64,000 nucleotides of DNA from an uncultured Alphaproteobacteria bacterium (GTDB lineage: Bacteria > Pseudomonadota > Alphaproteobacteria > UBA8366 > GCA-2717185), in NCBI GenBank assembly GCA_943788635.1, contig CALSRA010000027.1, positions 124,001 to 188,000 on the forward strand, in the 5' to 3' direction. Below the pieces are notes generated by a model. It saw only the letters and a program-made list of their open reading frames with translations, did not search any database and was not told the origin of the DNA. Shown piece after piece: positions 3,652 through 57,758 of the stretch. Numbering within the stretch: the first letter of the stretch is position 1; every line of letters starts with the position of its first letter. The position numbers and the translations under genes are program-made.

Positions 3652-5104
3652 ATGAGTGAATCAGGAAGGAAGCAGTCGCCGCGCAAGGAAAGCATGATTG
3701 CGTGGCTCGACCGCATCGCCGATACCCGAAATTCCTGGCTGCAGAAGAACAGCTATTTCCACCAGGAACACGAACGATACCTTAAATTCCTGGTTTCCAA
3801 GGGGTTGCGGGTGCTTGATGTGGGCTGCGGCACCGGACAGGTTCTTGCGTCGCTGGAACCCAGCCACGGTGTCGGCGTCGATTTCAGCCAGCGGATGGTC
3901 GAAATCGCGCGGGAAAACTATCCCGAACTACAGTTTGAACTCCGGCGATGCAGAAGACCCGGACCTGGCGGAGCGCCTTGGCGGACCCTTCGATGTGATC
4001 ATCCTGTCCGATACGGTTGGTTTCTTCGACGATTGTGAAACCGCGTTGCGGAATCTGCAGCCGCTGTGCACGCCGGACACGCGAATCATCATCGCGTATT
4101 ATTCGAAGTACTGGGAACCGATCCTGTCGATGGCGGAAATGTTCGGCATGAAGATGCGGCAGCCGCCGCTGAACTGGCTGTCATCCAGCGACATCGCCAA
4201 TCTTCTGCATCTGGCTGATTTCGACATTATCAAGCGGGACTGGCGGCAACTCCTGCCGCGTCGGCTTTTCGGGCTGGGGCCACTGGTCAATCGGTTCATT
4301 GGGGACGCTGCCGTTCTTCCGGCGGTTTTCACTGCGCAACTACGTTGTAGCCTGCCCCACACCAACGGAATCGCTGGGCGACCTGTCTGCGACGGTCATT
4401 ATTCCCTGCCGCAACGAGCGCGGTAATATCGAACCGGCGATTCAGAGGATGCCCCGTTTCGCAAAGGATATGGAAATCCTGTTCGGTCGAAGGGCATTCC
4501 AGCGACGGAACCTTTGAAGAATGTGAACGGGTCCGCGACGCCTATGCCGGGGAATGGGATATCAAGGCGGTGCAGCAGGACGGCAAGGGCAAGGGGGACG
4601 CCATGCGTAAGGGATATGACCTTGCGCGGGGCGATGTCCTGATGATTCTCGATTCCGATCTGACGATGCCGCCGGAGGACCTGCCCAAATTCTACGATGC
4701 GCTGGTGGAAGGCAAAGGTGAGTTCATCAACGGTTCGCGTCTGGTTTATCCCATGGAGCAGGAAGCTATGCGCTTTCTGAACTGGGTCGCCAACCAGATT
4801 TTCTCGTTACTGTTCAGCTGGCTGCTGAACCAGCGCTTTAACCGATACGCTTTGCGGGACCAAGGTCTTGCGCCGCCGCCATTACGACATGATCGCGGCC
4901 AACCGGTCGTATTTTGGCGATTTTGATCCGTTCGGCGATTTCGACCTGATCTTCGGGGCCACCAAGCTGAACCTCAAGGTGGTGGAAGTGCCGATCCGTT
5001 ATGCCAGCCGTCGATATGGCGAAACACAGATATCGCGATTTTCGCATGGCGTTCTGCTGTTGCGGATGGTTGTCTTTGCTTTTTTCCGCCTGAAGGCGTT
5101 CTGA
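3652..5104 (+). pseudogene. Bifunctional class I methyltransferase / family 2 glycosyltransferase, several frameshifts
   Basis: One long protein of about 480 residues split over four frames. N-terminal half: SAM-binding motif VLDVGCGTGQVL and the continuation GGPFDVIILSDTVG. C-terminal half: GT-A fold of the dolichyl-phosphate-mannose-synthase type, with ATVIIPCRNERGNIE, DSDLTMPPEDL (DxD metal site) and EVPIRYASRRYGETQIS. Breaks are near 3940, 4302, 4485 and 4841, and each is repaired by removing one base (for instance GGGG to GGG at 4301, TTTAACC to TTTACC at 4841). The methyltransferase-GT2 fusion is a known bacterial architecture. It probably makes a polyprenyl-phosphate-linked, possibly methylated sugar. 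It follows the UPF0104 gene and abuts the next methyltransferase. Confidence 0.8.
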
Positions 5105-5105
5105 C

Positions 5106-5840
5106 GTGGCATCCGCTGATCCAGCGGATTATCGCGACGTCTGGATGTCGAAACCGGTATTGCGCCGGATTTTACCAGAGCTGGTATCGGCAAATGGCCG
5201 ATGCCTGCCGTCCGGGCCGGTCGCTGGAAATCGGTGGCGGTTCGGGCAATTTCAAATCCTTTGCGCCGGATGTGGTATCCACGAGATATCCTGCCGGCCG
5301 CTTGGCTGGATTCGGTATGCGACGCACATTCCCTGCCGTTTGCCGATGCGTGTTTCGACAATATTGTGATGTTTGATGTTCTGCATCATTTGCAGCGGCC
5401 CGCACTTTTCTTCGCGGAAGCATCGCGCGTGCTGCGACCTGGCGGCCGGGTTGTGATGCTGGAACCCGCGATTACGCCCATCAGCCATGTCTTCTACGCC
5501 AAATTTCATCCTGAACCGGTTGATATGACCGAGGACCCGCTGTCTGAAGGGTCCATTGATCCGGATCGCGACCCCTACGATTCCAATCAGGGAATTCCGT
5601 CGCTGCTGTTTGGCAATGCTGCTCGACGGTCGGTGTTCGAAAGCAGGTTTCCGGAGTTTTCGATCATGACGACGCAACACCTTGCCCTGTTTGCCTACCC
5701 GTTATCGGGCGGTTTCCCGCCCCTGGTCGCTGATCCCCGACTGTCTCGTGGCGCCGGTTACGGCATTGGAAAATACCATTGCCCCGATGGTGGGGCGGGC
5801 CATGGGGTTTCGGTTGTTGACGGTTCTGGAACGACGCTAG
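5106..5840 (+). pseudogene. SAM-dependent methyltransferase, frameshifted
   Basis: About 240 residues. GTG start one base after the previous stop, so translationally linked. Methyltransf_11-type signature: SLEIGGGSGNFKSF (motif I), LPFADACFDNIVMFDVLHH and EASRVLRPGGRVVMLEP. Three one-base insertions break it: an extra T near 5171, an extra A near 5284 and an extra C near 5723. After the last one the correct frame reads LVAPVTALENTIAPMVGRAM and ends at TAG 5838-5840. It is probably the final gene of the surface-lipid cluster. The acceptor molecule is unknown. Confidence 0.75.
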
Positions 5841-5858
5841 CGCGTTCTCTGGCGCTGG

Positions 5859-6320
5859 TCAGGCAATTGCGTCGACACGGCGTGACAGGAAGACAATACC
5901 GGATGGTGAACGGGCCGGGCCGCCATTGGCGCGCTGATAGGCGGCAATCCCGGCTTCCTGGCGCCGGGCCGAAGCGGCATTGTTCGCAACCGATACACCG
6001 GCGCTTTGTTGCCCGATCAACTGGGTCAGGAATGGCGTGGATGGCCGGTTGGTCGGTCGGCGTTCCGGCTGGAAAAGGGGGGGGGGCGTGAAAGCTGTTC
6101 GGGTTGCCGTTCGCTGACCTGGCTGCGGCGAAGGGCGGAGGACGCGGGCGGAGTATCGGCCGCCGGCACGCCGGCCACTCCTGTTACCGGCAGCATCTCC
6201 CGATGCTGTCTGGACAGGTGGGCGCGGCAGCGGGTTCTCCGTTCTGGGAGCGCCGAACTGCTTCTGCAGGGTGCCGACCAACTCTACGATGTTCGGCGAT
6301 ATGACGGTTACTTCCGTCAT
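5859..6320 (-). CDS. Hypothetical proline-rich protein
   Basis: 153 residues from ATG at 6320 (MTEVTVISPNIVELV). The middle is low-complexity and rich in Pro, Arg and Ala. The C-terminal third carries a more ordered motif (PSTPFLTQLIGQQ followed by AAYQRA), a pattern I have seen in small uncharacterised alphaproteobacterial proteins, which is the main reason to keep it. No signal peptide, no transmembrane segment and no known domain. It converges with the methyltransferase gene 18 nt away and diverges from the GGDEF-EAL gene. Function unknown. A longer start at 6380 is possible but adds no recognisable sequence. Confidence 0.5.
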   Translation of the reverse strand: MTEVTVISPNIVELVGTLQKQFGAPRTENPLPRPPVQTASGDAAGNRSGRRAGGRYSARVLRPSPQPGQRTATRTAFTPPPLFQPERRPTNRPSTPFLTQLIGQQSAGVSVANNAASARRQEAGIAAYQRANGGPARSPSGIVFLSRRVDAIA

Positions 6321-6367
6321 GGCGAACCTTCCGTAATGACATACGAATTTTGCCCCCTGCACCCACG

Positions 6368-6392
6368 TTAACCATCCCACTTCATCCTTAAC
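6368..6392 (-). promoter_or_regulatory. CtrA-like half-site and TTAAC box
   Basis: The 8-mer TTAACCAT at 6368-6375 equals the CtrA half-site described in Caulobacter; a further TTAAC lies at 6388-6392. They sit in the 173-nt gap between two divergent genes, 100-125 nt upstream of the GGDEF-EAL start. The gap 6393-6493 is strikingly AT-rich. Binding by CtrA is inferred from motif identity only. Confidence 0.4.
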
Positions 6393-6493
6393 GGTTTGTT
6401 ACCGGAAAGCTTGGAAATCGATTTATTTTTGTTTTTTTGTTAAATTAGATAAAATTTTAGACGAATGCTGGAAATACTGATAAAGACTGGCTT

Positions 6494-8173
6494 ATGATTG
6501 ATTTGACCGGTGGGTCGGAAACACTGCTTGGCGCGTTGATGGCGGCGGGCGATACCGTCTATGTCTGGGACATCGAAAGTGACCGGATGACATTCATGGG
6601 CGATTCCGGTCCGCTTGTCGGACGGAGCCGCATCGTCGACGGGGCTGCGTATCAGGCGCATGTCAATGCCGAGGATCAGGCGCGCCGGCTGGAAACCCTA
6701 GCCAGGCATTTTTCGACAGGCGACCGGTTCGATTGCGAATATCGCCTGCGTCAGCCGGATGGCGCATTCTGCTGGGTGCATGATCGTGGTCAGGTCGAAA
6801 ACGGCGCGGAAGGGAAGCCGCGCTCCATGACCGGGACGCTGCGTGTTGTGACCGAGCGCAAGTCGGCTGAGGAAGGCCAGCGTGAGCGGGCGAGCTATGA
6901 CACGCTTACCGGTCATTACAATCAGTCCAGATTGCGGGATGCCCTGGAAAACACGCTGTCCTATGCCCGGCGCTATGGGGCTGAAGGCGGCTATCTGGTT
7001 GTCGGGCTTGACGGTGCGGCCGATATTGCGGCGACCTACAGTGACGCGGTCGTGGATCAGCTCGTCTTGACCGTTGGCCAGCGGCTGGAAGCCTGTCTTC
7101 GGACAGCAGATATGATCGGGCGGCTGGATACGCACTGTTTCGGCGTCGTGCTCAGTCATTGTCCCCAAGCCGGGCTTGCGGCGGCGGCGGCCAAGATTAT
7201 TGCCGCTGTTTCCAGCGAACCGGTGCCGACATCCGCGGGTGCGATCCCTGTCAGTGTTTCAATCGGTGGGATCCTCTTCCCGATCGCAGCCACGACAGCG
7301 GCAGGCGCGATGGTGAGCGCTGAAACGGCCCTTGAAGATGCCATGCGAAGCGGCGGGGGAGCCGCTGTCCTGTGCGGAACGGGCCCGGGACCAACCATTC
7401 CGGATACCACGCAAGAGGATATCGGCGAAGCCCTGCTGAACGCGATGAATGACGGGCGGGTTGCATTCGCTTACCAGCCGGTTGTGCATGGAAACAGTCG
7501 CGAGGTCGCCTATTACGAGACATTGCTGCGGATCGTGGATGACGACAAGGACCCGGTTCCCGCCTCGTTGTTCGTGCCGGTTGCCGAAAAGCTGGGCCAT
7601 TCGCAAAGGGTTGACCGCCATGTGCTGGACCTCGCCATGGTGGAACTTGAAACCCATGAATCATTGCATCTGGCGATAAACATTTCCGGGTTCACGGTCA
7701 CGGACCGCTCATGGCTGCGCCGCCTCAGCGGTCTGGTCGGTGGCCGTCCGGAAATTGCGCGGCGCCTGATTGTCGAAATAACGGAAACGGCGGCGCTCTA
7801 TGATTTCGAGGATTCGCTGCGTTTTGTTTCCGCTGTTCGTGCGCTGGGCTGCCGGGTATCGCTGGATGATTTCGGTGTTGGGTTTACGGGATTCCGGCAC
7901 CTGCAAACCTTTCCGGTCGATACCGTGAAAATCGACGGGTCGTTCGTTCGCGGCGTGGCGCAGAACGAGGCCAATCAGGAATTTATCGATACCCTTCTCG
8001 GCATGGCGCGGTCATTCGGAATGGAAACTGTCGCGGAATGCGTTGAAACGCAGGCGGATATGGATTTCCTGCTGGGCCGCGGCGTCACCTATCTGCAGGG
8101 CTGGGAACTGGGCGCCCCCGCTCTTGCGCATCCCGCTCTTGCGCATTCGGCCCTACCGGTTAACGCCGGCTAA
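6494..8173 (+). CDS. PAS - degenerate GGDEF - EAL cyclic-di-GMP protein
   Basis: 559 residues, no signal peptide or membrane span, so cytoplasmic. Order: PAS fold (about 12-130, ends in RVVTERK linker), GGDEF fold (about 135-300, begins YDTLTGHYNQSRL), EAL fold (about 310-550). The GGDEF signature is replaced by RLDTHCFGVVL, so cyclase activity should be absent. The phosphodiesterase residues look present: YETLLR at the EAL position, NIS, EITET, DDFGVG, VKIDG, AECVET and QGWELG. Likely role: c-di-GMP hydrolysis controlled through PAS and a regulatory GGDEF domain. Transcribed alone from an AT-rich promoter region; converges with phaR. Confidence 0.9.
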   Translation: MIDLTGGSETLLGALMAAGDTVYVWDIESDRMTFMGDSGPLVGRSRIVDGAAYQAHVNAEDQARRLETLARHFSTGDRFDCEYRLRQPDGAFCWVHDRGQVENGAEGKPRSMTGTLRVVTERKSAEEGQRERASYDTLTGHYNQSRLRDALENTLSYARRYGAEGGYLVVGLDGAADIAATYSDAVVDQLVLTVGQRLEACLRTADMIGRLDTHCFGVVLSHCPQAGLAAAAAKIIAAVSSEPVPTSAGAIPVSVSIGGILFPIAATTAAGAMVSAETALEDAMRSGGGAAVLCGTGPGPTIPDTTQEDIGEALLNAMNDGRVAFAYQPVVHGNSREVAYYETLLRIVDDDKDPVPASLFVPVAEKLGHSQRVDRHVLDLAMVELETHESLHLAINISGFTVTDRSWLRRLSGLVGGRPEIARRLIVEITETAALYDFEDSLRFVSAVRALGCRVSLDDFGVGFTGFRHLQTFPVDTVKIDGSFVRGVAQNEANQEFIDTLLGMARSFGMETVAECVETQADMDFLLGRGVTYLQGWELGAPALAHPALAHSALPVNAG

Positions 8174-8993: not shown

Positions 8994-9022
8994 CTTGATT
9001 TGCGTTGCGGCGGCGCGTTATG

Positions 9023-9033
9023 TTGCATTGCAA
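9023..9033. promoter_or_regulatory. Candidate PhaR operator 2
   Basis: Symmetric TTGC-ATT-GCAA, same geometry as the site at 8915, 63 nt upstream of the phaA start. It could place phaA under PhaR control. Confidence 0.45.
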
Positions 9034-9096
9034 AATCGCGCGTTGCCGGTCGCCTTCCGGCAGACGGGCCTGTTTTCCATCGAAAGGAGTTGCTTC

Positions 9097-10272
9097 ATGT
9101 CGGAAGTCGTTATCGCAAGCGCCGCGCGCACCCCGGTGGGTGCGTTCAGTGGTGGTCTCAGTACGGTGCCGGCCTCGTATCTGGGGTCCGTCGCCATCAG
9201 CGAGGCGATGAAGCGCGCCACGGTCGACCCCGGTGAGGTTGACGAAGTTATCATGGGCCAGATTCTGACAGCCGGTACGGGGCAGAACCCGGCCCGCCAG
9301 GCAGCGATTGATGCCGGCATTCCGGTCGAAAAGACGGCCTACCAGATCAATCAGCTATGCGGATCGGGGCTGCGTACAGTCGCGCTTGGCTATCAGTCCA
9401 TCCTGACGGGGGATTGCGATGTCGTCGTCGCCGGCGGACAGGAAAGCATGAGTATGTCACCGCATTGCGCGCATCTGCGCAACGGCCAGAAGATGGGTGA
9501 TCTGAGCTTCGTCGACACGATGCTGAAGGACGGCCTGTTTGACGCCTTCAATGGCTATCACATGGGCAATACGGCGGAAAACGTTGCGCGCCAGTGGCAG
9601 TTGACCCGCGAAGATCAGGACGTCTTTGCCGCCGCATCGCAGCAAAAGGCCGAAGCGGCGATGGCCGCCGGCAAGTTCGTGGACGAAATCGTTCCGGTCA
9701 CGATCAAGGGACGACGCGGTGATACGATCATCGACACCGACGAGCATCCCAAGTCCGGCACGACCGTTGAAACGCTGGGCAGGCTGCGGGCGGCCTTTGA
9801 AAAGGACGGTACGGTAACGGCCGGCAATGCGTCCGGCATCAATGACGGTGCGGCGGCAACCGTGCTGATGAGCGCGGACATGGCGGCAAAGCGTGGCATT
9901 ACCCCGCTGGCCCGGATCGTTTCCTGGGCAACAGCGGGGGTGGACCCGACCATCATGGGGACCGGCCCGATCCCGGCAAGCCGCCGGGCGCTGGAAAAAG
10001 CCGGCTGGAGCGTCGATGATCTTGACCTGATCGAAGCCAATGAAGCCTTCGCTGCACAGGCCTGCGCGGTTAACCGCGAACTCGGCTGGGACACTTCCAA
10101 AGTTAACGTGAATGGCGGTGCCATAGCACTTGGCCATCCGATCGGCGCCAGCGGCACCCGCGTGCTCTGCACGCTGCTGTTCGAAATGGCGCGACGTGAC
10201 GCGAAAAAGGGTCTCGCTACCCTGTGCATCGGTGGCGGCATGGGCATCGCCATGTGCGTCGAACGCGACTGA
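9097..10272 (+). CDS. phaA: Acetyl-CoA acetyltransferase (beta-ketothiolase)
   Basis: 391 residues, the usual length. Start ATG 9097 preceded by AAAGGAG at 9084-9090. Thiolase N-domain with active Cys in [14 protein letters not shown] (about residue 89); C-domain with [22 protein letters not shown] (catalytic His) and [13 protein letters not shown] (second Cys). It condenses two acetyl-CoA to acetoacetyl-CoA, the first step of polyhydroxybutyrate synthesis, and can work in reverse in degradation. The divergent phaR supports the biosynthetic thiolase name. No phaB or phaC is nearby. A hairpin terminator follows directly. Confidence 0.95.
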
Positions 10273-53957: not shown

Positions 53958-54482
53958 GTGCGTTTTCCATCCATTATTCGAATTTCTCTGGCGGCATTGG
54001 GGCTCGTGCTGACCGCCGGCATGGCGCAGGCCGACGAGGTGTCGCTGGGTACCTTCAAGGACTGGCAGGCCTATTCCTTCAAGGAAGGCGACAAGAATGT
54101 CTGCGTCGTCTGGGGGAAGCCCGCGAAGGAAGCGGGCAAGTATACCAAGCGGGGCGAGGTTCGGGTCTTCATCGCGCACCGTCCCTGGACCCGGCCGAAA
54201 CGGGTCAACGAGATCAGTTTCGAAGCCGGGTACGGGTTTCGGAAGGACAGTGAAGCCGCCGCCACGATCGATGGCCGGAAGTTTGCGCTGTTTACCGATG
54301 GCGACACAGCCTGGAACCGGTCGGCGAAGGATGATGCGGCGATGGTCAAAGCCATGCGCATCGGCAAGAAGATGGTCGTGAACGGCGTATCCGGCCGTGG
54401 CACGAAAACGACTGATACCTATTCCCTGCTGGGCTTTACCGCGGCCCATAACGCTATCAACAAGGCGTGCAAGGTGAAGTGA
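53958..54482 (+). CDS. Invasion-associated locus B (IalB) family protein
   Basis: 174 residues. GTG 53958 with AAGGAG 7 nt upstream. Signal peptide IIRISLAALGLVLTAGMAQA-DE. The mature part has the IalB fold: FKDWQAYSFKEGDKNVCVVW, PKRVNEISFEAGYGF, AMVKAMRIGKKMVVNGVSG and TDTYSLLGFTAAHNAINKAC. Alphaproteobacterial IalB proteins are periplasmic and of unclear biochemical role; the name comes from Bartonella. Probably co-transcribed with the SpoU gene. Confidence 0.88.
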   Translation: MRFPSIIRISLAALGLVLTAGMAQADEVSLGTFKDWQAYSFKEGDKNVCVVWGKPAKEAGKYTKRGEVRVFIAHRPWTRPKRVNEISFEAGYGFRKDSEAAATIDGRKFALFTDGDTAWNRSAKDDAAMVKAMRIGKKMVVNGVSGRGTKTTDTYSLLGFTAAHNAINKACKVK

Positions 54483-54535
54483 GCGACAGGCCATGAGGGC
54501 CTCTCTGCCTCCGGAATGAGCGGGAGATGCTGTCC

Positions 54536-54598
54536 ATGAACATCTTTCTTACCGGCGCAACCGGCTATATCGGGGGCGGCTGTTACGCAGCGGCCTGA
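54536..54598 (+). pseudogene. Remnant: first codons of an NAD(P)-dependent epimerase-like gene
   Basis: ATG 54536 with CGGGAGATG upstream starts MNIFLTGATGYIGGG, the classic Rossmann start of extended SDR/NmrA-type proteins, and then runs into the 75-bp repeat and stops at TGA 54596. The rest of the gene is missing. The break coincides with the repeat boundary at 54582, so it marks a recombination or integration junction. Confidence 0.75.
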
Positions 54599-54656
54599 AT
54601 TGCCGGTTCCACCGCAAGGGCCGATTGCGGCACGAAAACCTGTCCGCTGGAAATCG
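54582..54656 (-). repeat. 75-bp direct repeat, copy A (displaced 3' end of prpF-family gene)
   Basis: 71 of 75 bases equal to 55645-55719, same orientation. On the minus strand it reads ISSGQVFVPQSALAVEPAIQ followed by AAA and the stop codon, the same C-terminus as the intact gene. Two of the four differences are synonymous third positions (TCG/TCA, GTG/GTA). It begins one base beyond the stop codon. Confidence 0.9.
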
Positions 54657-55644
54657 AAACGCAAAAAACTAAAAAGAACGTTTAGGTTGAGTTCATAGTC
54701 TTGAACGTTACAATACTCTTTTTCGAGTTATTGCCATTTTTCAATTTTCTAAGGGTTAGTTGATAAGGTCGAAAGATAAATTTTCGAAGCGGAATAGAAT
54801 TGCTGTAGGGGTACTGCCGCAGGGATGATGTTTACTCCCTTGTCAAAATTGATTCTGGTATACTTCAATAATGAGAAACGTTTGTAAAATGTGCGACGAG
54901 CGATCTGACTTCGTAGATGCGCATATTGTTCCTCGTAGCTTCTATCCTGAGAGGGGGCGCGGACGAGAAGCGTTGATCGTTATGACTATGAACAAAAATA
55001 TACGAAACGGGCGTTCTCGGATCGGAATATATGATAAATACCTTGTGTGTGAAGGATGCGAAAAAAAATTTGACCCATTTGACGATTATGCTGCCAAACT
55101 TTTATTGGTTAATAGAGAAAGGCATAAAGTTATAGAAAACCATGGCGATCTGGTTGGATATCTTATTGATACTTTTGATTATAAAAAACTGAAACTTTTC
55201 GGGTTATCCTTGCTATGGAGATCTGCTTTTACAAGTCGTATTGAGTTTTCAAATGTAAAGCTAGGACTATTTCAGGGTATCCTTACGCAGTTGTTGAAAA
55301 ATGAAGACCCTGAGTGCCCTGAAGTGTTTAGTTGCCAATTAACTCGATTCAGCGACGTAAAAGATTGGCAATCAGGTTTTTTGTCTCCCTTTCGTGAAAA
55401 GTATGAAGGAATAAATTTTTATAGATTTTTGCTGGGCAGCTATGCCCTTTACGTTAAGGTTGACAGAAGGCCAACTCCGAAATTTATGTCTCCGTTTATA
55501 ATGCGACCAAACGCTCCGCTAATATTAGATTCTAGGGAATTTCGCGGTGGCCCAGAGTACCGAGCGTTCTATCGAACTGCCAACATGATAAGGGAATAAT
55601 ACTTAAAATTGCAGCGATAGTTGGAGTAAGGATTAACAGTTCAG
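54657..55644. mobile_element. AT-rich inserted cassette between direct repeats
   Basis: 988 nt whose base composition is very unlike its surroundings (about 35% GC in three counted lines, against over 60% around it). Bounded exactly by the two 75-bp repeats. Contains one gene (54871-55599) and no integrase or transposase. Best read as a small integrated element or its remnant, inserted at the 3' end of the prpF-family gene. 54657-54870 is AT-rich leader with no second gene. Confidence 0.7.
54871..55599 (+). CDS. Orphan Cys-rich HNH/zinc-finger-like protein in the AT-rich cassette
   Basis: 242 residues. Two CxxC pairs and a His segment: CKMCDERSDFVDAHIVPRSF and YLVCEGCEKKFDPFDDYAA. This C..C-HxxPR-C..C layout resembles HNH-type zinc folds, but the last His/Asn of HNH nucleases is not evident. 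The rest (about 90-242) has no family I recognise. Codon use is AT-rich throughout and unlike all other genes in the window, a strong sign of transfer. ATG 54871 lacks a strong Shine-Dalgarno. Defence or mobile-element function is a guess. Confidence 0.75.
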   Translation: MRNVCKMCDERSDFVDAHIVPRSFYPERGRGREALIVMTMNKNIRNGRSRIGIYDKYLVCEGCEKKFDPFDDYAAKLLLVNRERHKVIENHGDLVGYLIDTFDYKKLKLFGLSLLWRSAFTSRIEFSNVKLGLFQGILTQLLKNEDPECPEVFSCQLTRFSDVKDWQSGFLSPFREKYEGINFYRFLLGSYALYVKVDRRPTPKFMSPFIMRPNAPLILDSREFRGGPEYRAFYRTANMIRE

Positions 55645-55719
55645 GTTACGCAGCGGCCTGAATTGCCGGTTCTACCGCAAGGGCTGATTGCGGCACGAAA
55701 ACCTGTCCGCTGAAGATCG
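55645..55719 (-). repeat. 75-bp direct repeat, copy B (current 3' end of prpF-family gene)
   Basis: Forms the last 24 codons and stop of the intact prpF-family gene. Mismatches to copy A at four positions. If the cassette inserted site-specifically, this copy was brought in with it and copy A is the original end. Confidence 0.9.
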
Positions 55720-56749
55720 GCCGGGCGGTGCGGGTCAGGAAAGCGGCGTCGATGCCGGTCGCTGCGCCAAAGCCCTTGGTGACGATGCCAATTTCGATGG
55801 CACCCCCGGGGTGTTCGACCCGGATTTCCGAGTCATCTGTCCCGTTCGCCAGGGCATGAGCAATCGTGCCGTTGATCCGGGTCGCGCCCGCGACGCAGAT
55901 GGCACCGGTTGCGGCATGGGCCGCGTGGCAACGGCCTGGGGTGAAATAGCGTGATGAAATGCCGCTGTCGCCGCGCGACTTGGCCAGTATCGCGATCTTC
56001 GGGATGACGGAATTCGATACATCACCCAGTCCCATCAGCCGACCTGCGGCCCGGCGGATCGTTTCCAGCCGGTCCAGCAGATCCGCATCGGCATCCAACT
56101 CGGCTTTGCTTTCATAGCCGGTTCGGCCCAGGCTTTCGGCGGCGACCAGCACCATCGGCATCGCCAGGTCCACACAGGAAACATCGACGCCGCAGACCCG
56201 GTCGCGCGCCTTGCCCGTGGGTAGCAATCGGCCGGTCTTGCCGCCGGCGATCTGCCGAAACTCAAGCCGGATCGGCGCGGATGTGCCGGGAACGCCGTCG
56301 ACGGATGTATCGCCTTCATAGGTCACCTGATGGTTCGGCGTCTGCACGACGCAGTCGATCATCGCGCCGGTATTGACGTTGCGGACACGAACCGTCGTTT
56401 CACCATCCTGGGCCGCGACATACCCGTTTTCGATAGCGAAGGGGCCGACCCCGGCGAGAATATTGCCGCAGGACGGTGCGGTGTCGACACTGGGCTTGTC
56501 CACGCCGACCTGGGCGAACAGGTAATCCACATCCGCATCTTTATGGGTTGACGGGGAAACAATTGCGACCTTGCTGGTCACGCTCGTCGCACCCCCGGCG
56601 CCGTCGATCTGGGTCGGATCGGTGGCACCCATTGCCGCCAGCAACACCGCATCGCGCGCGGCCCTGTCCAAGGGCAGGTCGGCAGCCCGGAAATACAAAC
56701 CGCGGGATGTGCCGCCGCGCATCATGACGCATGGGATCGAGTGCTGCAT
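55646..56749 (-). CDS. PrpF-family isomerase (4-oxalomesaconate-tautomerase-like)
   Basis: 367 residues from ATG 56749 (GGAG 9 nt upstream; ATG 56764 is an alternative). Diaminopimelate-epimerase-like fold: IPCVMMRGGTSRGLYF, IDGAGGATSVTSKVAIVSPS, DTAPSCGNILAGVGPFA (active-site Cys), GDVSNSVIPKIAIL and a Cys in ICVAGATRINGT. Closest in feel to GalD/4-oxalomesaconate tautomerase; methylaconitate isomerase PrpF is the other option. No prpBCD genes are near. Divergent LysR gene 89 nt away probably regulates it. Its 3' end is the integration point of the AT-rich cassette. Confidence 0.87.
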   Translation of the reverse strand: MQHSIPCVMMRGGTSRGLYFRAADLPLDRAARDAVLLAAMGATDPTQIDGAGGATSVTSKVAIVSPSTHKDADVDYLFAQVGVDKPSVDTAPSCGNILAGVGPFAIENGYVAAQDGETTVRVRNVNTGAMIDCVVQTPNHQVTYEGDTSVDGVPGTSAPIRLEFRQIAGGKTGRLLPTGKARDRVCGVDVSCVDLAMPMVLVAAESLGRTGYESKAELDADADLLDRLETIRRAAGRLMGLGDVSNSVIPKIAILAKSRGDSGISSRYFTPGRCHAAHAATGAICVAGATRINGTIAHALANGTDDSEIRVEHPGGAIEIGIVTKGFGAATGIDAAFLTRTARPIFSGQVFVPQSALAVEPAIQAAA

Positions 56750-56838
56750 TGTCGGTGTCTCCATTGTTCGAAGACACCTTGCCTGCATCGCATTGATATG
56801 AGAAATTCAATTAAATCAAATATTGATGCAAAAAACAG

Positions 56839-57750
56839 ATGAATGTGAGCCTTGAGGATATCCGGGCCTTCCTGGTGATTGCCGAACTGGAAAGCTTCAG
56901 CCAGGCGGCGGACCGTCTTTCGGTATCGCAATCCGCCCTGTCCCGGCGGATCGTGAAGATCGAGGACCATCTGGGCGCCCGCCTGTTTGACCGATCCACC
57001 CGCCATGTGGCGCTGACGGCAATTGGCCGGGAGTTTCTGCCGCTGGCGCATCGAATGCTGGGCGAATTCGAACGATCACTGGACCGGATCGGCGACGTTA
57101 TCCTCAAACGCGGGGGGGTGGTGACGATTGCCAGCCTGATGACCGTGGCGTTCGGGGTGCTGCCGCCGGTGGCGGCGCGGTTCGGGGCAGCGCATCCCGA
57201 TGTCCGGTTGCGGATTCTCGATGCCACCGGCCCCGAAATTGCCGCGCATGTCCGGTCAGGTGAGGCTGAATTCGGGATCGATATGGAAGCCGAACCCGAT
57301 GCGGAAATCGCCTTCGAACCGCTGGCTGTGGAACATTACGTGCTGGCCTGCCGGCCGGGCCATCCGCTGGCCGGTGATACACCGCTGGATTGGTCCGCAG
57401 TGCATGGGCACCGCTGTATCGTGCTGGGACCGGATAGCGGTATCGGCCGCCAGCTTCGCGCCGCCGTGCCCCATATCGACTGGCAATGCGAGGTACAGCA
57501 TCTCAGCACCGTGCTGGGGTTTCTGGCGGCGGGCATCGGGGTCGCGGCGATCCCGGCACTGGCGCTGGGATCGATGAACGCCGCCGACCTGGTGTATCGC
57601 AGGCTCACCGGGCCGGAGGTGACGCGCCGTATCGGCATCATCCGGCGCCGGGGGGCGGCGCTTTCGCCTGCCGCGTTGAGCCTGCGCGACAGCGTTACGG
57701 CTGAATTCGCAGCACTTCGCGACGGCCAGAACGCGCAGGCGGCCCGATAA
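56839..57750 (+). CDS. LysR-family transcriptional regulator
   Basis: 303 residues. N-terminal wHTH: LEDIRAFLVIAELESFSQAA and LSVSQSALSRRIVKIEDHLG. Effector-binding domain: VVTIASLMTVAFGVLPPVAA, FGIDMEAEPDAEIAFEPLA and STVLGFLAAGIGVAAIPALA. Divergent from the prpF-family gene, the usual arrangement for a LysR activator and its target. The 89-nt gap is AT-rich and should contain the shared operator. Confidence 0.93.
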   Translation: MNVSLEDIRAFLVIAELESFSQAADRLSVSQSALSRRIVKIEDHLGARLFDRSTRHVALTAIGREFLPLAHRMLGEFERSLDRIGDVILKRGGVVTIASLMTVAFGVLPPVAARFGAAHPDVRLRILDATGPEIAAHVRSGEAEFGIDMEAEPDAEIAFEPLAVEHYVLACRPGHPLAGDTPLDWSAVHGHRCIVLGPDSGIGRQLRAAVPHIDWQCEVQHLSTVLGFLAAGIGVAAIPALALGSMNAADLVYRRLTGPEVTRRIGIIRRRGAALSPAALSLRDSVTAEFAALRDGQNAQAAR

Positions 57751-57758
57751 CAGCCCTA

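Follow-up and report, generated by a model that had tools for sequence, protein, structure and literature searches.

How does the end of a bacterial gene come to stand twice on a chromosome, with a kilobase of compositionally deviant DNA between the two copies? The question is raised by a galD-type gene in the 64,000-nucleotide stretch of alphaproteobacterial DNA analysed here (hereafter the window), where two 75-bp direct repeats enclose an AT-rich segment. Our analysis supports a real, small insertion that restored the end of the gene behind which it lies and that carries one uncharacterised mobile gene; it is a solitary event, of a broadly known type and ordinary in kind. The features concerned are the following:

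54536-54581, + strand: apparent start, cut short, of a gene for an NAD-dependent epimerase (MNIFLTGATGYIGG), read directly from the sequence and assigned to its family by motif only
54582-54656, - strand: repeat copy A, the displaced galD 3′ end including the stop codon, with the F-to-S change
54657-55644: AT-rich insert, 988 bp, 39% GC
54657-54870, + strand: leader of the cargo gene, 214 bp, 35% GC
54871-55599, + strand: cargo gene, 242 aa, CxxC-AHIVPRS-CxxCE, with an HNH_5-like N-terminus
55645-55719, - strand: repeat copy B, the present functional galD 3′ end
55646-56788, - strand: galD-type 4-oxalomesaconate tautomerase (PrpF family), 380 aa
56839-57750, + strand: LysR-type regulator, divergent from galD

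The repeats (71 of 75 positions identical, BLAST E 9e-27, spacing 1063) are present in exactly two copies in the whole 3.98-Mb draft genome and, read in the galD frame, both of them end in the C-terminus SGQVFVPQSALAVEPAIQAAA followed by a stop codon. Only residues 356-380 of galD (25 codons) are duplicated; unbroken identical stretches reach 28 bp at most, and on one side the identity extends a single base past the stop codon. No clear microhomology is visible at the junction of copy A with the insert. The four differences consist of transitions only: two silent ones in the tail, a silent one in an Ile codon and a Phe-to-Ser replacement in copy A. Since this replacement falls on a position that is hydrophobic in the relatives, copy B is the working galD end, and copy A, released from that role, looks like a displaced and decaying one. 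The two copies also differ in their codons, B having GTA (6%) and TCA (12%) at the positions where A has GTG (40%) and TCG (20%). The GC content is 39% over the 988 bp of the insert, against about 60% in the surroundings. The first-pass annotation had described this arrangement correctly, both in the extent and deviant composition of the segment and in taking copy B for the present gene end and copy A for the same C-terminus and stop with mainly silent differences (three of the four are silent); it was equally right that no integrase is present, none being found inside or beside the insert. Nothing in the insert matches Rfam, the window contains no tRNA, promoter and terminator signals do not exceed those of shuffled sequences, and the plasmid and phage records contain no DNA match to the locus.

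The host gene had been assigned to the prpF family, and the family assignment stands, while the gene is not PrpF proper: it scores 212 bits against the prpF model TIGR02334, below the cut-off of 440.55, and 483 bits against NCBIfam NF033377 (4-oxalomesaconate tautomerase, cut-off 440). Judged by its sequence, it is better named a 4-oxalomesaconate tautomerase of the galD type. The divergent LysR-galD pair is also present in one genome of the same genus (G002), in which galD is 75% identical overall, has a different C-terminal tail and is followed by another gene. In a second same-genus genome (G001), the interval between the IalB-like and NYN genes (L057, 6877-8460) holds two other genes and lacks galD; given this different gene content, the interval 54483-57758 of the window must be considered a variable locus. 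The insert is absent from the same-genus genomes, which diverge strongly at this locus. On the far side of copy A, the 14 epimerase-like codons, which the first-pass annotation did not mention, break off at the start of the repeat, only a few bases away from the stop codon of galD, so that two junctions with no relation to each other, this break and the galD stop, coincide almost to the base.

Most of the insert is occupied by its single open reading frame, which is convergent to galD and was absent from the first-pass annotation. The 242-aa cargo protein has no match in Pfam, NCBIfam or PADLOC; it does match two phage protein families of unknown function, PHROG 19960 (E 3e-17) and PHROG 7075 (E 2e-14). 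Most of the 25 aligned family members share the motifs CxxC, H-I-[IV]-P, G-x-[YF]-D, a second CxxC and FFLSLLWRA. Weak matches to HNH_5 were obtained for six of the 25 (best E 0.009), and the hhalign comparison of the family profile with HNH_5 aligns just the first CxxC and HIIPR (20 columns, probability 79-90%). The CxxC zinc ligands and the first His of the HNH motif are accordingly found in most members, and the catalytic Asn and final His are without a conserved equivalent among the 25 aligned sequences. The predicted structure is a confident one (pLDDT 92.6). Sequence and fold searches of the PDB gave no credible match to a solved structure, and the sole strong fold match of the predicted model, which extends over its whole length, is to an uncharacterised myovirus protein. 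The function is probably directed at nucleic acids and is perhaps anti-phage. On the reading preferred below, the protein is a passenger of the insertion and not its mobiliser.

The family to which this passenger belongs is a scattered one. Single-sequence searches of the genome and viral contigs returned no close relative of the cargo protein; with alignment-based patterns, the genome collection gave 45 loci and the viral contigs 25 entries, and about 62 loci with cargo relatives entered our locus comparisons. Relatives occur in 9 of the 385 genomes of the class and in 2 of the 43 of the order, counting this genome, the other member of the order having a single distant relative. They are found on plasmids and in an Acinetobacter phage, and at six loci (L045, L046, L049, L052, L084 and L107) they adjoin serine or tyrosine recombinases. 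In Xanthomonas they are integron cassettes lying between attC sites (L098, with sites at 4892-4941 and 5812-5861, and L103, with several sites), and the Desulfoluna relative, between attC-like sequences (L079, 4943-4984 and 5719-5758), is probably another such cassette. Elsewhere they stand beside genes that match PADLOC models (HmaA/HmaB, an ATPase-Toprim protein, AbiGi). At L047 (3376-7004), the relative lies downstream of Tgt-like, glycosylase-like, QueC-like and TIR-domain genes in an operon-like run, a probable defence operon. These integron, plasmid, phage and defence-island contexts imply that the cargo gene is mobile cargo that has been taken up by many different carriers; the family is mobile, patchy, defence-associated and uncharacterised.

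Two of these loci have repeats that deserve description. In Mesorhizobium sp. YC-39 (L116), a 157-bp direct duplication of the comEC/gltX intergenic region (2690-2845 and 5909-6065, 94% identical) encloses a 3.1-kb insert of lower GC content (53% as compared with 65%), in which a cargo relative and a gene for an OLD-like ATPase are found. In a Bacteroidia MAG (L084, JAUHYD010000031.1), a large serine recombinase gene (6037-7614, - strand) has its 3′ end repeated twice further on (repeats at 3768-3910, 4805-4844 and 6019-6161). Small cassettes lie between these repeats, one of them with a cargo relative, and FRTL[DN]WQKI is the peptide encoded by the core that the repeats have in common; possibly the recombinase has a cassette array at its own 3′ end. 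Nearby direct repeats bracket 7 of 52 cargo relatives and 3 of 79 neighbouring genes (Fisher p = 0.05). Duplicated gene 3′ ends around a cargo relative were seen at L084 alone among the roughly 62 loci, so that the family as a whole cannot be said to duplicate gene ends.

Is there, then, an enzyme or an attachment site that would account for the insertion behind galD? The tyrosine recombinases of the genome (eight matches) and its single resolvase-type protein are all encoded on other contigs. None of the viral contigs contains either 20-mer of the repeat, and behind the 37 galD/PrpF-family genes of relatives, scanned up to about 1.5 kb, there is no duplicated end, no other cargo and no detectable recombinase. 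An element using the same site was thus found neither in the genome nor in the viral contigs nor behind these 37 genes, and 463 kb of the same genome contain no second insert of the kind. At L176 (G000:C12), 556-bp repeats (1876-2429 and 9017-9572, 99% identical) surround 6.6 kb of 45% GC, near a match to a 495-aa tyrosine recombinase. The locus was also considered as an integron cassette and rejected: no R″/R′ pair of an attC site was detected at 54480-55800 by a scan of low sensitivity (of five control attC sites, known or probable, it recognised one), and the integron integrase TIGR02249 stays below its cut-off in this 84%-complete genome.

These searches bear directly on the first-pass proposal that site-specific integration had supplied a replacement 3′ end. 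The replacement itself holds, for B works, A has decayed, the identity ends at the stop and genomes of the same genus are without the insert. The site-specific part found no counterpart, be it an integrase, a further att copy, a virus with the 20-mers or another occupied end among the 37 genes. The suggested searches for other cargo at the prpF 3′ ends of relatives (0 of 37) and for an integrase using the 75-bp att elsewhere came back empty as well. A class of tiny non-autonomous elements, which had also been suggested, finds no support, with no second example in the same 463 kb and a single case, L084, among the cargo-relative loci. It is thus the single event that is well supported, and not a class.

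The mechanism we infer, and with it the involvement of an integrase and the question of which copy is original. The reading that we slightly prefer, with a probability of roughly 0.4, is that a foreign one-gene segment entered right behind galD by recombination within the last ~75 bp of the gene. From then on galD would have ended in copy B, and its former end, copy A, would have been shifted by 1,063 bp and left to decay. The likeliest route would be site-specific integration at the galD 3′ end by an integrase encoded outside the segment, either lost by the element or acting in trans, and what remains would be an att-flanked, integrase-less remnant. Several observations are consistent with this: a gene-end repeat that keeps the reading frame intact and whose identity extends just one base beyond the gene's stop, an amino-acid change within a conserved stretch that is confined to copy A, the low GC content of the insert, and a cargo gene that is rare in the order and class and has relatives in mobile contexts. 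A restored gene accompanied by a displaced fragment is the published mark of islands made by integrases (PMC4383910). L084 offers a possible analogue, with a cargo relative between duplicated serine recombinase 3′ ends, and the rarer codons of B faintly suggest arrival together with AT-rich DNA. Against it stand the lack of an integrase in the insert, with the recombinases of the genome on other contigs, and the lack of a further repeat copy, of a virus with the repeat and of another occupied galD/PrpF end. Moreover, the C-terminal tail is lineage-specific, so that an element of broad host range would have needed a host-specific gene end. Finally, apart from the L084 analogy, all the support also fits homology-facilitated illegitimate recombination. 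That process, a realistic competitor, would have brought in DNA of a close relative in which the cargo already lay behind galD, by homologous pairing within galD on one side and, on the other, an illegitimate joint in the end of the recipient's galD; the donor would have supplied gene end B, and A would be the left-over end of the recipient. It needs no enzyme; since A and B have the same lineage-specific tail, the donor would have been very close, and the 5% divergence, mainly silent, suits two alleles. It is known from naturally competent bacteria and, at low efficiency, from E. coli conjugation (PMC3240628); for the displaced genes and gene ends of Vibrio T6SS and Rhs loci it has been suggested (PMC5361080). 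However, the process is rare, chance would have had to place its illegitimate joint 75 bp ahead of the stop codon, and it shifts the first insertion to the donor and leaves it unexplained there. Our slight preference for site-specific integration comes from the rarer B codons in a GC-rich gene and from the L084 case.

The other explanations are weaker. Breakage or template switching at the end of galD could have copied 75 bp around captured foreign DNA, the two copies then drifting apart; the exclusive occurrence of transitions, silent in the functional copy as under selection, and the lack of other repeat copies in the genome would agree with such an in-place duplication, yet it leaves unexplained why the identity breaks off one base after the stop codon and how a single complete gene was captured, and we consider it unlikely. 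It is quite improbable that the cargo is a self-moving endonuclease element, a bacterial counterpart of the fungal mitochondrial mORFs in which an HNH-like protein would cut the galD 3′ end and bring a resistant replacement end without any integrase. The anatomy would be that of the mORFs, in which a host gene has a replaced C-terminus next to an endonuclease-like ORF and its native C-terminus lies about 1 kb away (PMC3630166), and the N-terminus of the cargo protein is HNH_5-like; but no HNH Asn or last His can be made out in the family, the duplicated gene 3′ end is missing at all but one of the related loci, and the ORF is convergent to galD instead of in line with it. An assembly artefact, conceivable in a draft of 57 contigs that is 84% complete, is highly improbable when the copies differ at four sites, share no identical run longer than 28 bp and lie well inside a 254-kb contig. 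Least probable of all is a tandem duplication of galD followed by the loss of most of one copy: it would give two gene ends in direct orientation, but residues 356-380 alone are duplicated, the intervening DNA is foreign in composition, and the insert contains no further galD remnant, which disfavours this origin.

Whatever the route, the locus is a clean, small example of how a single foreign gene settles behind a housekeeping gene without harm, and the insert exposes an uncharacterised mobile, defence-associated protein family without a solved structural relative. A mechanism driven by an endonuclease or working without an integrase would, if demonstrated, be a new route for the spreading of single genes.

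Among known systems, integrase-less, att-flanked remnants of integrative elements have been described as CIMEs (PMC5704250). As in these, the end of a gene is repeated on both sides and the gene is restored; the 75-bp repeats, whose att role is putative, contain the last codons of galD and its stop, and the insert, with a single ORF lacking any Pfam match, has no integrase or transfer genes. It differs in being about 1 kb long with a single gene, in having no known parent element or integrase for the site, and in the putative nature of its att activity. The Islander-type islands made by tyrosine integrases likewise have a gene end regenerated on one side and a displaced fragment on the other (PMC4383910), but here the target is a protein gene instead of a tRNA or tmRNA gene, there is no integrase and the example is a single one. 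In the Vibrio T6SS and Rhs loci, a new gene end and its cargo are similarly placed before the remnant of the old one (PMC5361080), whereas our case concerns a housekeeping catabolic gene and a single unrelated cargo without an array. Integron gene cassettes resemble the insert in that relatives of the cargo are cassettes in Xanthomonas and probably in Desulfoluna; they differ from it by the attC-like site and the integron integrase above cut-off that were not detected here. The closest anatomical match is with the fungal mitochondrial mORFs, endonuclease ORFs that duplicate the C-termini of Allomyces atp6 and of Glomus atp6, atp9, cox2 and nad3 (PMC3630166): both anatomy and size are almost identical, although the present insert lies on a bacterial chromosome and its cargo, convergent to the host gene, is without a recognisable complete HNH motif.
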